In this document: piece after piece, positions 21,642-36,628 of the stretch
Layout of the letters: each line of letters begins with the position of its first letter
Position numbering within the stretch: position 1 is the first letter of the stretch
NCBI RefSeq assembly: GCF_029910235.1
Contig: NZ_CP112874.1
Location: forward strand, 3,038,001 to 3,102,000
From: Pseudanabaena galeata CCNP1313
Lineage (GTDB): Bacteria; Cyanobacteriota; Cyanobacteriia; Pseudanabaenales; Pseudanabaenaceae
Length of the DNA: 64,000 bases
Direction of reading: 5' to 3'
Made by a program: the position numbers and the translations under genes
The notes under the pieces: model-generated
The model's input: only the letters and a program-made list of their open reading frames with translations
What the model was told of the DNA's origin: nothing
The model's database searches: none

Positions 21642-23019
21642 GGGTGCGACCTCAATACAATACAATTATTAGACAGCAGCAGGAAACCCATACTGATTGA
21701 GATTGTCCCAGAATTGCTCCCAACGAGTAGAAGTTAAAACTAAAGCTCTTAAACTCAAAATTATGCTCGCCCCCTTGTCCTTCCAACGCATCCCAGAGCA
21801 ACATAATCGTTGCTTTATTAAAGTCTTGCAAGCAGCTTCGGTCACACCAGAGCCAATCGGATAGGTTTTCTGTTGGAATTGAGCATAGTCCATTTGCCAC
21901 AAATGATTGTTAAAGTAAGTAATCGAAGCTTGGAGCTTTTCCCTCATGGTTTCGGTTAGCTTATTTTCAGTCATCGCCAGTACCATCTGGTTGTAGAATT
22001 TTTCGGCACTTCCGATTTCATGTTTGAGTTGATGACAACTATTTTTAAGCCATTCTTTTTGTTCGGGAATTTGCTTAGGATGTAGAACTTCGGCTAGTAT
22101 TCCCAAATAACCTGAAGCATGATAAAAATCGAGGATCTGCTCTTCTGTGTGTTCATTTAAGAATTTCCAGTTGGATTCGGCTCCATCAGCAATTCCTACA
22201 TAGGTTGCATTAGGATATCGATCTTTTGTTTGTCTGATTTCTCGCTCTAATCGTTCTAAAAATCGCTTCCTACCATATTCTGGTGTTGCTCCCAGATAGA
22301 TCGTGTGCTGACGTTCTCCTTCACTATCATATAATGATATCGTCCCTACCATAGCTTCTCGCCAGCCATCTTCACACATCAGCATACAGGTTCCATCTAA
22401 CCCTATACCAACCGATTCAATCTTGACATCTATCTCTGGCGGCTCATAATTGTCACTTTCTTCTTTTGCTTGCACAATGCTGCCAACCGCTTCGCTCAAT
22501 CTCTGAATATAGGATACTGCTACCTCACGCCCATGATTATCACGCAAATCTCGTTGTACTTCTCTTGCTACCCCATTAGCCATTTTCGATGATATTTGTT
22601 TGGCGAACTTTGGTGTTGATGTCACAACTATTCGTGCGTTTCTTTCCATGGGGCAATAAGTTTTTCCCCCACCCGCACTTTGATATACATGCCTTGCTAC
22701 TACTACCTCGCCGTAAGGAGTTTGATATGCTTTCTCTTCCTCTCCCTTTGTTCGCCATGTTTTCTCTCCTAGCTTTATTGCTGAACCATCTGTATCTAAA
22801 TGTTTCATTGCTTCCTTAGCTGCTATACACCCTGCTTCGTTCAATCCTTCTTGAATATTACCTTCACTATCTAACATCGATTCACTCAATTCAATTGTAA
22901 GTTCGATTTTTACTTTTGTGCCTTCTACACTTATTAACTTTGCCGACATTTTCTTTCTTGATCTCCTTCGTTATTCTTTCATTGTTCTACAATCTTCGTA
23001 TTATGTCAAGGTCGCACCC
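21642..23019 (-). mobile_element. Complete ISKra4-family insertion sequence (1378 bp)
   Basis: Terminal inverted repeats begin GGGTGCGACCT (21642-21652) and end AGGTCGCACCC (23009-23019); 11 bp perfect, about 18 of 22 with extension. Flanked by 8-bp direct repeats TTTTCAAT (21634-21641 and 23020-23027). It contains one transposase frame. The perfect duplications and intact transposase suggest a recent insertion. It interrupts a TPR-CHAT gene. Confidence 0.93.
21669..22949 (-). CDS. ISKra4-family transposase
   Basis: 426 aa. C-terminal hallmark GVTEAACKTLIKQRLC, then SGMRWKDKGA and RWEQFW, as in ISKra4 transposases. Probable DDE residues: Asp in GIGLDGTCM, Asp in GIADGAESNW, Glu in SGVTEAACK. 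The first ~170 residues include Cys and basic residues likely to bind the terminal repeats. AAGGAG sits about 11 bases before the ATG at 22949, an unusually clear ribosome-binding site here. The frame is intact, so the element could be active. Confidence 0.92.
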   Translation of the reverse strand: MSAKLISVEGTKVKIELTIELSESMLDSEGNIQEGLNEAGCIAAKEAMKHLDTDGSAIKLGEKTWRTKGEEEKAYQTPYGEVVVARHVYQSAGGGKTYCPMERNARIVVTSTPKFAKQISSKMANGVAREVQRDLRDNHGREVAVSYIQRLSEAVGSIVQAKEESDNYEPPEIDVKIESVGIGLDGTCMLMCEDGWREAMVGTISLYDSEGERQHTIYLGATPEYGRKRFLERLEREIRQTKDRYPNATYVGIADGAESNWKFLNEHTEEQILDFYHASGYLGILAEVLHPKQIPEQKEWLKNSCHQLKHEIGSAEKFYNQMVLAMTENKLTETMREKLQASITYFNNHLWQMDYAQFQQKTYPIGSGVTEAACKTLIKQRLCCSGMRWKDKGASIILSLRALVLTSTRWEQFWDNLNQYGFPAAV

Positions 23020-30387: not shown

Positions 30388-30462
30388 GCTAGGACAAATC
30401 AAAACCCAAAAGATGAGTGGCGGCGCTTCGCGCCGCCACTCATCTTTTGGGTTTAAGCGCAA
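30386..30462. repeat. Hairpin element related to family 2, copy 3 (partial)
   Basis: Perfect 25-bp arms 30402-30426 and 30430-30454, loop TTC; the stem differs by one base from that at 35780-35832. The left flank TAGCTAGGACAAATC matches family 2, while the right flank diverges. It lies before the stop of the minus-strand ATPase-like gene and may also end its transcript. Confidence 0.55.
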
Positions 30463-30500: not shown

Positions 30501-32462
30501 TTAACTCGTTTTAATTAGCTCTTGTACCCAAAATACAGCAGTAGCACTGAGAATTGAGATCATCCATTCAATGCCATTTAAAGGAACAGTTGACATCAGA
30601 TCGCCAAACCAAGGAACTTGCACAAAGGCTATTTGACAAATAGTAATAAAGGATATGCCAAGAATCAGTGGCAAGTTGCTAAATACACTTTGACGAGCGA
30701 TCGCACAGGCATGAAAAACCTGACTGAAACCAAGGCTGACAAAAGCCATAGATCGCGCTTGGGAAAATAGCGAAGGTTGACCTTGATACTTTAGCCAAAA
30801 GACTAGGGAAATGGCGGTAATCGTGGCGGTGACAGTGAGCAAAATGCGGAGGTAATTACTAGGACGCAACATGGTTTGAAAACGATGTGCTGGTTGAGAT
30901 AGCAGACTCTCATGGGTAGGCTCAAGAGCGAGAGGAAAAGCCACAAGTGGTGTCGCGATCGCCCCGACCCAGATTAATTGCAATGGCGGTATGGAGAATC
31001 CTGCGGCGGTATCCATCAAAGTTAGGACTGCCAACGTAAAGGAACTTGTAGCCGTAAGTAAGGCTATGCGTTGCAGCCGATCAAAGGTAGCTCTTCCTTC
31101 AAGAATCGCGATCGGTAAATAATGGAAGTCTTCCTTCGGCAAAATTAGTGCTGAACTATCTTGTAATTCTTTGCGACAGGTGCGATCGCAGATTCCGACA
31201 TCAGCGGCTCTGAGCAGAGGAATATCTTCAATATCATTGCCAATTACGGCAACTGCCTTTAAAGGCTTTTGGCTAGATTTGGAGGCTTCTCTTTGCCATT
31301 GGCGAATCCGCTCTTGAGGTGCATCAAAATAACTATGGGTTTCAATACCAATCACTTCACTAAATGCGGCTGCATCATCTTCAGAAGCTCTGATCAGTCC
31401 TCTCCACTCAATGCCAGCCCGACTTAAATTGTCAAAGCTCAACACCACATCCGACTCAACTATTGGCACAATTTTAGTTACTCTCGCGATCGCATCTAAG
31501 ACAGAAGGAAACCGCACCCATATTCTCTGTTTGGCAAGATCGCACATCCCCAATAATTGGACTTGTGTAGCAATGCGTAATAAATTTTGAGGATAGGTGC
31601 TAACAATTAAAGCGGCAGCAGTCATCGCATTGATCGTAATTCCGCGTTGCCATGCAAAGCCGACCGCCGTAGTTGTAACTAACAGCAACATCCCAATCCA
31701 GACTTGGCGTAGTTGACGTAATTCAGAATGGATAACTGAAAATGGCTTCTCTTTGATTAAAGCTGCTTGTTCTTGGGTGAAACGACTTGTTGCAATCACA
31801 ATACCTTTCACGGTTCCTGTGGAAATTTCTGTTCCCGCATAGATCATATTGCTGCATTCAAGGGGTGGAGTTTTTTCCTCAAAGGTAAGCTCAGCTCGCT
31901 TAGCACAAATTGCTTCACCGCCTAAATTTGTCTGATTTACCAGTAAATCTTCTGATGTCTCTAGTACACGCAAATCCACATTCGGGCGATCGCCTTCTCG
32001 CAGCACTAAAATATCACCTAATACCAAATCCCGCGATGGCAGTTCCATCTCTTCACAATCGCGCAATACAATCACTGAATTGGATGGAGCATTTTGACGG
32101 CGTTGGGGGCGATCGCGACTGACCTTCTCTTTGGTTTTAATAGACCATATGGAAATAATAAGCCCTGTTACGCTATGCAATATCCCTACGGAAATTAGCG
32201 CCCATCCTTCAGCTCTATTCCATTGCAAATAAATTGCCGATCCTAATAAAAGATAAGTTAAAGGATTGATTAAAGGTTGTAAGAGAACCTTGCCGATGGG
32301 ACGCGATCGCGGTAGTTTATTGGCTCCCAAATACCGCAATCTTTGCCGCGCATTTACATATGATAAACCTCCCATCGAAGATTCCAAAGCTGCCAATACT
32401 TGCTCTACGTCCATGTAGTGCCAAGGTTTTTGAATATCCGATAGAAAGTCAAATTTTGTCAT
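30501..32462 (-). CDS. Catalytically dead P-type ATPase homologue
   Basis: 653 aa from ATG 32462; an upstream frame extension to 32540 contains a TATAAT-like box and is probably not translated. It aligns in order with P2-type cation ATPases: N-terminal WHYMDVEQVLAALES, the actuator region with NLGGEA where TGES is expected, membrane segments, the P-domain end GNDIEDIPLLRAADVGI for GDGxNDxPAL, and C-terminal helices. The phosphorylated Asp of DKTGT is absent (region reads ESDVVLSFDNLSR), the nucleotide-binding domain is mostly missing, and the M4 PEGL motif is PQNL. ATP-driven transport is therefore unlikely. The frame is intact and ordered, suggesting a retained pseudoenzyme, perhaps regulatory. 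About ten membrane segments remain. Confidence 0.8.
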   Translation of the reverse strand: MTKFDFLSDIQKPWHYMDVEQVLAALESSMGGLSYVNARQRLRYLGANKLPRSRPIGKVLLQPLINPLTYLLLGSAIYLQWNRAEGWALISVGILHSVTGLIISIWSIKTKEKVSRDRPQRRQNAPSNSVIVLRDCEEMELPSRDLVLGDILVLREGDRPNVDLRVLETSEDLLVNQTNLGGEAICAKRAELTFEEKTPPLECSNMIYAGTEISTGTVKGIVIATSRFTQEQAALIKEKPFSVIHSELRQLRQVWIGMLLLVTTTAVGFAWQRGITINAMTAAALIVSTYPQNLLRIATQVQLLGMCDLAKQRIWVRFPSVLDAIARVTKIVPIVESDVVLSFDNLSRAGIEWRGLIRASEDDAAAFSEVIGIETHSYFDAPQERIRQWQREASKSSQKPLKAVAVIGNDIEDIPLLRAADVGICDRTCRKELQDSSALILPKEDFHYLPIAILEGRATFDRLQRIALLTATSSFTLAVLTLMDTAAGFSIPPLQLIWVGAIATPLVAFPLALEPTHESLLSQPAHRFQTMLRPSNYLRILLTVTATITAISLVFWLKYQGQPSLFSQARSMAFVSLGFSQVFHACAIARQSVFSNLPLILGISFITICQIAFVQVPWFGDLMSTVPLNGIEWMISILSATAVFWVQELIKTS

Positions 32463-32560
32463 AGTTTGATTTTGGGGCTTCCTTAATCTAGATGTGGCTA
32501 TTATAGAGTGGAGATTTGAGTTTTTAAAATTTGCTAGCAATCACGATATATCGCTTATGG

Positions 32561-32672: not shown

Positions 32673-32724
32673 AGAAATAATTTTGAAAGCGGCACGGATT
32701 CGTGCCGCTTTCAAAATTATTTCT
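32673..32724. repeat. 24-bp perfect hairpin before a Uma2 gene
   Basis: Arms 32673-32696 and 32701-32724, core TTTTGAAAGCGGCACG, loop GATT. It lies between divergent genes (ATPase-like and Uma2), where a terminator is not needed. That supports it being a dispersed hairpin repeat or an mRNA structure. Confidence 0.6.
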
Positions 32725-36004: not shown

Positions 36005-36628
36005 ATGGCTGAACAAAAAAAAGCTGTTTTAATGATGCACACCGATCAAGCACAAGGGGAATTGTGGCAGACAGCTTTGGCAACTCAGCAATTAGAAGTA
36101 ATTTGGGAAAATATTTCCTTAGATTTAGTGCAGTATTTAGAAAAATGCGATCGCCAACAGTTACCAGATCTATTGATTATGGACATGGCAATCAAAAGCC
36201 CTACTTCCGAGACATTGCAATCATCATCGGTTTGTCAATGGATATCTAAGCAACAAGCTCCGACCAAAGTTGTGTTATTTAATCCTAGACAAGAAAAAAT
36301 CAAAGATATCGAACATAGTTGGGCTTTGAGACGAGGAGCCTCTGATGTGTTACCACGACTATCGCCTGAAAATTTAATGGCTGAAGTTGCCAGAGTAACA
36401 GCTTTGATTGGCTGTTCCTTGATTTCCCAGCCCTTAGAAAAAATTGCTAAAAGCATAGGAGCTAAAACTGGAGCTACACAACCTAGAGCGAGTGAGTTAG
36501 CAGTTAAGTCAGAAGTTGATGCTCTCAAACCAAGTTCAAAATCTGAAACTAAAAATAATTCTAAAGCTAACCAAAAGTCGAATGCTGGGGAAGTAGTTAT
36601 GTATCGGGGAGTAAGAATTAGGCGATAG
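36005..36628 (+). CDS. Degenerate receiver-domain protein with C-terminal YRG tail
   Basis: 207 aa. Residues 1-130 fold like a receiver: KAVLMMHTDQ, Asp60 in LLIMDMAI, and GASDVLPRLSPE at the end. The acidic pair is reduced (MHTD instead of xDD) and the conserved Lys is replaced by Pro-Arg, so normal phosphotransfer is doubtful. A Lys/Ser/Asn-rich linker (about 150-190) leads to VVMYRGVRIRR, resembling the first strand of DUF4278 proteins. Cyanobacterial hypothetical. Next gene is separated by a long hairpin. Confidence 0.7.
   Translation: MAEQKKAVLMMHTDQAQGELWQTALATQQLEVIWENISLDLVQYLEKCDRQQLPDLLIMDMAIKSPTSETLQSSSVCQWISKQQAPTKVVLFNPRQEKIKDIEHSWALRRGASDVLPRLSPENLMAEVARVTALIGCSLISQPLEKIAKSIGAKTGATQPRASELAVKSEVDALKPSSKSETKNNSKANQKSNAGEVVMYRGVRIRR

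Follow-up and report, generated by a model that had tools for sequence, protein, structure and literature searches.

The window, a 64,000-nucleotide stretch of the Pseudanabaena galeata CCNP1313 genome (contig NZ_CP112874.1), carries on its minus strand a reading frame that is open throughout from 30501 to 32540. Within this frame, the ATG at 32462 begins 653 codons for a protein related to P2A-type ATPases, termed here the pseudo-ATPase (Table 1). The start codon at the corresponding place is ATG in all 25 copies from the genus, the window's own counted. REC and GGDEF genes lie on one side of the gene, a Uma2 gene and a DegT aminotransferase gene lie on the other, and none of the Pfam-scanned neighbours in the window is a pump gene. 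The two flanking inverted repeats differ in sequence, and the core of the upstream repeat occurs once in the window. These hairpins suggest that the gene may be transcribed as a unit alone; promoter-like sites near it are at chance level (6 found, 6.1 expected). Elsewhere in the window, two other frames have no Pfam match at 0.001: one at 21669-22949 (426 residues) and one at 36005-36628 (207 residues), the latter beside a peroxiredoxin gene, a position it also has in several relatives.

Table 1. Coordinates of the pseudo-ATPase gene, its protein regions and its flanking repeats in the window
Feature	Coordinates	Strand	Evidence or remark
Pseudo-P2A-ATPase gene, 653 aa, ATG start	30501..32462	-	Orthologues in 34/38 family genomes
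Cation_ATPase_N region, aa 14-77	32232..32423	-	PF00690, E 2.2e-11
PF00122 region (A domain + M3-M4), aa 128-312	31527..32081	-	PF00122, E 4.5e-19
GGEA in place of TGES, aa 181-184, inside PF00122 region		-	Motif alignment
M4 motif YPQNLLR, aa 290-296	31575..31595	-	xPEGLPA in active pumps; Arg296 invariant
P-domain remnant, aa 313-470	31053..31526	-	DKTGT absent, N domain deleted
Cation_ATPase_C region, aa 493-651	30510..30986	-	PF00689, E 8.8e-24
Perfect 25-nt inverted repeat directly 3ʹ of gene	30402..30454		Terminator-like on the minus strand
Perfect 24-nt inverted repeat upstream of gene	32673..32724		

By homology, the window protein belongs to the P-type ATPase superfamily, as is evident from its Pfam domains, its match to the general P-type model and its predicted fold. 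PF00690, PF00122 and PF00689 match in order, each above the Pfam cut-off, which bears out an earlier note on this DNA that had described an open frame with its membrane part and domain order kept. The N-domain model (PF13246) and the hydrolase model have no match in the protein at E ≤ 10, in a search whose HMMER filters remove most matches above 0.1. The genome contains 11 genes with a PF00122 match, and the pseudo-ATPase gene is the weakest of them. The general model TIGR01494 is passed by the window protein (66.5 bits, cut-off 62.3), and three members from other genera fall below that cut-off (40.7, 33.7 and 29.5 bits). The best NCBIfam match by E-value is the PMR1-type model TIGR01522, at 114.4 bits well under its cut-off of 798.3. 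The best sequence matches in the PDB are SPCA1 and LMCA1, and the sequence profile agrees with a P-type fold.

Structure prediction, proposed earlier as a check, likewise returned a P-type fold without an N domain. With P-type pumps in the alignment (19 of 42 sequences), the AlphaFold model reached a mean pLDDT of 85.8 and a pTM of 0.82; with close relatives only, pLDDT was 54.1. The best fold match is SPCA1a (Z 40.1 over 617 residues, rmsd 8.1), and further matches are SERCA, MgtA and the Na,K-ATPase. Because the added pumps steer the model, these values indicate compatibility with the P-type fold and are less than independent proof of it.

Two larger losses interrupt an otherwise collinear alignment of the window protein with an active paralogue from its own genome. 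The main loss lies between the Asp of DKTGT and TGD, an interval of 25 residues in the window protein versus 238 and 239 in two active pumps (238 in the paralogue L039), and it takes out both the N domain and DKTGT. Together with the missing PF13246 match, this agrees with the earlier description of an N domain largely deleted. A second, smaller loss ahead of the P-domain Lys leaves 27 residues versus 56 in L039. The tripeptide ESD at residues 336-338 comes after the former phosphorylation strand, which spans residues 328-335 in the AlphaFold model. Motif alignment also shows the previously noted changes of PEGLP to PQNLL and of TGES to GGEA, though the Glu of TGES is still present, and losses that had not been listed come in addition: TGD to RAS, GDGVND to GNDIED, and the ion ligands of M5 and M6.

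These losses are shared across the family. DKTG is found in none of 33 valid family rows, and the frame of a further genome (G303), read by eye, is also without it. As a control, all 25 of the other P-type ATPases that were read keep DKTGT; they comprise 7 of the 10 others of this genome plus those of relatives. The residues expected to hold ions are likewise replaced: the ligands of M4 (the PEGLP Glu), M5 (Asn and Glu) and M6 (Asn and Asp), named after the SERCA sites, were compared over 30 valid family rows. The M4 Glu is Gln in 29 rows, Lys in one and Glu in none; the M5 Asn has become Ser, Ala or Leu and the M5 Glu Leu, Ile or Thr; the M6 Asn is Gly in 30/30 and Asn in none; and the M6 Asp is Thr in 29 and Met in one. 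D703 occurs in 0/30 rows outside genus g2. At the five ion-ligand positions, taken in the above order, the 21 active rows have E in 21, N in 20, E in 16, N in 18 and D in 10, the last of which means that the final ion ligand is not universal in pumps either. (A truncated pump, L112, was excluded from these active sets together with L108, L109 and L114.) The loss of motifs is not total, as the P-domain Lys is retained in 7/30 family rows and the final Asp of GDGVND in 27/30; the Glu of TGES is retained in 23/30. Judged by DKTGT, the N domain, the ion ligands and the TIGR01522 cut-off, the window protein would not qualify as a functional P2A-type Ca2+-ATPase, and from its sequence it is predicted to be incapable of a phosphorylation-driven E1/E2 cycle.

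That the main deletion corresponds to one structural unit, with a P-domain remnant retained, could be taken to mean that the protein belongs to a split pump, with another gene supplying the N and P parts in trans. No orphan N-domain gene was detected in the window's genome at PF13246 sensitivity, however, where all six PF13246 matches fall in frames of 907-983 residues, that is, in full-length pumps; in other family genomes, a few matches fall in shorter frames of 257-738 residues. At this sensitivity, which an N domain too diverged for the model would escape, a split pump is contradicted in this genome, and the ion ligands have been lost as well, making this explanation highly improbable.

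In addition to what has been lost, the family has invariant residues of its own. Comparison of nine pseudo-ATPases with 21 active pumps identified 54 positions that are invariant in the former and present in fewer than 30% of the latter, and 15 of these are Arg or Trp. In the larger set of 30 rows, 14 of the 15 remain invariant, namely ten Arg (R39, R43, R121, R252, R296, R358, R427, R465, R533 and R590) and four Trp (W315, W353, W389 and W645), all rare in active pumps. R159, a candidate from the nine rows, was removed because it is His in 1/30. R296 lies in M4, at the position where most pumps carry Ala after PEGLP.

Orthologues are present in 34 of 38 genomes and seven of eight genera of this cyanobacterial family, including 25 of the 26 genomes of the genus, G006 being the exception. 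Among the named relatives are Pseudanabaena sp. SR411, P. biceps PCC 7429, P. mucicola FACHB-723 and Phormidium tenue FACHB-1050 (97% identical). Three of the four family genomes without the gene are 77-85% complete, and the fourth (G027) is 99% complete. G027 is the only family genome more than 90% complete that has no pseudo-ATPase; an active-type P-type ATPase there (L046:656-3367) is divided between two frames, one of 544 and one of 342 residues. Among 388 genomes of the class, full-length or clearly specific matches were obtained in 31 genomes with profile A1 (at 1e-60) and in 34 with profile A3, all of the family, the members in genus g2 being missed by the first profile and found by the second. 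No full-length match was detected in the 350 sampled genomes of the class outside the family, with at most three candidates scored per genome, so that diverged members there could be missed. Seven of these 350 genomes pass 1e-43, each with a match confined to the first half (ending by position 327 of 641); the frames concerned are at least 900 residues long in six cases and 369 in one (G167). Plasmid records gave no match at 1e-60.

In a tree of ten pseudo-ATPases and 24 active pumps, from which the truncated L112 was excluded, the active set is separated at 100% support, in line with a single origin of the pseudo-ATPases. The member from genus g2 has a very long branch and is weakly placed (71%). 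This genus (G033, G026 and G298; genomes of 2.4-2.7 Mb) encodes a shorter version, about 580 residues in the two unbroken copies, with an identity of only 25% in the copy that was aligned. The g2 copies (L045:6213-7949, L201 and L202) have lost the N domain, TGES and TGD, and all three carry Asp at the D703 position. All three also have Asp at the place of the DKTGT Asp when the strand is read ungapped, an alignment that is not firm since MAFFT places DKTGT in a gap; this Asp hints that the N domain may have been lost earlier than the Asp. A one-time conversion in the family ancestor, from a pump scaffold to a membrane protein that is no longer an ATPase and has a predicted binding site of its own on M4, once the ion-gate helix, and on the new invariant Arg and Trp residues, is plausible at somewhat under even odds.

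Frame breaks occur in 2 of 34 members, both in draft assemblies (G298, L202; G303, L200), and represent either assembly error or early decay; the remaining 32 have none. In G001, the copy has a stop four codons early. These irregularities, along with the shorter, diverged version of g2, are what can be said for a decaying pseudogene that is open by chance, the possibility for which the earlier note had named a dN/dS near 1 or frequent frame breaks as the mark. No ratio near 1 was obtained, and frame breaks are not frequent. Over 53 of the 300 genus pairs, pairwise Nei-Gojobori dN/dS has a median of 0.082 and a maximum of 0.115; the pairs used have 0.02 < dS < 1.2, and 247 were dropped for dS outside 0.02-1.2 or undefined. 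One left-out pair, L031/L032, is very close (dS 0.004) and has a ratio of 0.47. Low ratios are found along the whole protein, with segment medians (49-53 pairs each) of 0.095 for the N-terminus, 0.098 for M1-M2, 0.084 for the A domain, 0.039 for M3-M4, 0.085 for the P remnant and 0.083 for M5-M10. In the same genome pairs, the pseudo-ATPase has a median of 0.082 versus 0.075 for the active P2A paralogue of the L042 type, with a median dN of 0.064 versus 0.065; this comparison covers 33 of 210 pairs, the other 177 having been dropped. Neutral simulation at 0.1 substitutions per site left 1 of 300 runs with an unbroken frame, and at 0.3, 0.6 and 1.0 none of the 300 runs made at each level kept it open.

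The presence of the gene in most genomes and genera of the family, with a dN/dS close to that of the active paralogue, argues that it is not a decaying pseudogene. All six segment medians are near that of the active pump, most members are unbroken, and decay has very little probability. Selection guards the sequence of the pseudo-ATPase to nearly the degree seen in a working pump. With its catalytic residues lost and purifying selection acting on what is left, the protein is most likely a pseudoenzyme; since the machinery for ATP and ions is gone and pump-like constraint persists, some other job is likely.

One such job would be that of a ligand sensor or a passive conduit acting by itself: its membrane bundle, never phosphorylated, would stay in a single state and would bind a solute, or let it leak through, at a rebuilt M4 site. 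M3-M4 is indeed the most constrained segment (0.039, versus 0.083-0.098 elsewhere), and the changes at the former ion site are close to uniform, with Gln for the M4 Glu in all but one row and both the new Arg296 and the M6 Gly in 30/30. However, the cation ligands have been removed without an evident substitute site, and a conduit or sensor is unlikely.

Gene neighbourhood was also considered as a guide to function. Among the loci compared, no neighbouring gene is kept from one genus to another, other genera showing different neighbours, and ten genes scanned near pseudo-ATPase copies in other genomes have no common theme; a DnaJ gene upstream in L079/L080 is local only. Within the genus, the gene directly upstream on the same strand encodes, in 14 genomes (e.g., L059:4600-5934), a protein of about 445 residues; in G011 and G007, 3 nt separate the two genes. 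Reading of the sequence by eye shows a single hydrophobic stretch in this protein, and a Pfam scan of two copies gave no match. Adjacency on the same strand holds in 14/14 genus genomes with a strong match to the gene, which favours a complex of which the pseudo-ATPase is a subunit together with the protein encoded upstream. Set against this, the pseudo-ATPase occurs without a strong match to the upstream gene in 11 genomes of the genus, that of the window among them, which rules out an obligate partnership; G017 and G020 retain no more than the first 10 codons of that gene (L012 and L013; tblastn); and the gene is present in other cyanobacterial families without the pseudo-ATPase. A like 10-codon stretch lies in the upstream sequence of G010. 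A complex of this kind is improbable, and the gene may be an operon partner but is not a required one.

Active pumps were searched for as possible partners. A pump of the L042 type (at least 78% identity) is present in 22 of the 26 genus genomes, and pumps at 60-62% identity, the band with L043, are present in 25; G009 is without the latter, whereas the pseudo-ATPase is missing in G006. Neither type was found at 1e-250 in genera g2 and g7, both of which have the pseudo-ATPase, and in the L039 search, 6 of 26 genus genomes pass 1e-250. Strict co-occurrence with the pseudo-ATPase was not found for the two active P2A types searched. Regulation of an active paralogue, as the earlier note proposed, may fit as a candidate role, with neither an active paralogue searched for nor a neighbouring gene following the pseudo-ATPase strictly.

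The most likely reading of the protein encoded in the window is that of a membrane pseudoenzyme passed on by vertical inheritance. The earlier characterisation as a membrane pseudoenzyme is well supported, as catalytic and ion-site residues are lost family-wide and purifying selection resembles that on an active pump. In its full form, the preferred explanation holds that this pseudoenzyme descends from a P2A-type Ca2+-ATPase and acts by binding, as a membrane scaffold or modulator, with a probability of roughly 0.5. The sequences show that the ATP-binding domain, phosphorylation loop and ion ligands are gone and that the membrane part and A domain, together with half the P domain, have stayed under strong purifying selection. 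That a folded, non-pumping membrane protein is made is very probable. Its binding role is put forward more tentatively: the M3-M4 hairpin, formerly the ion gate, and the A/P remnant may form the surfaces through which it contacts a second membrane protein, perhaps an active P-type pump, with the pseudo-ATPase as an embedded scaffold or modulator, an assignment held at well below even odds.

The phosphorylated Asp is the defining feature of P-type ATPases. A family that has discarded this residue, the ATP domain and the ion site, and whose remainder is constrained like a pump, suggests that the scaffold of membrane part and A domain is useful by itself. The pseudo-ATPase family is a natural system in which to ask what this scaffold does. 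Among the open-licence papers listed by literature searches (12 of 327 in one of them), none describes by title or abstract a bacterial P-type pseudoenzyme family of this kind, family-wide and under selection.

The nearest known systems are the P2A Ca2+-ATPases, that is, PMR1/SPCA, SERCA and the bacterial LMCA1; PacL is the cyanobacterial name for such enzymes of the PMR1/SPCA and SERCA type. The window protein has the domain order and membrane fold of these pumps in common but differs from them in being without the N domain, DKTGT, TGES, TGD, GDGVND and PEGLP. A plant homologue of P-type ATPases is described in a footnote as unlikely to be functional, with TGES changed to TASD, PEGL to PVGL and part of DKTGT missing (PMC3355532). 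By that footnote, the same core set of motifs has been lost as in the window protein; the plant case appears there as one protein with splice variants, whereas here a bacterial family with measured constraint is at hand. A second likeness is offered by the P4-ATPase-like domain of Plasmodium guanylyl cyclase alpha, which is reported to keep the Asp, a residue that could not be replaced (PMC7858053). As that account has it, a P-type fold is tied to the control of another activity, to which the window protein may be likened; the Asp that the Plasmodium domain keeps is gone from the window protein, where the surrounding scaffold has been retained.
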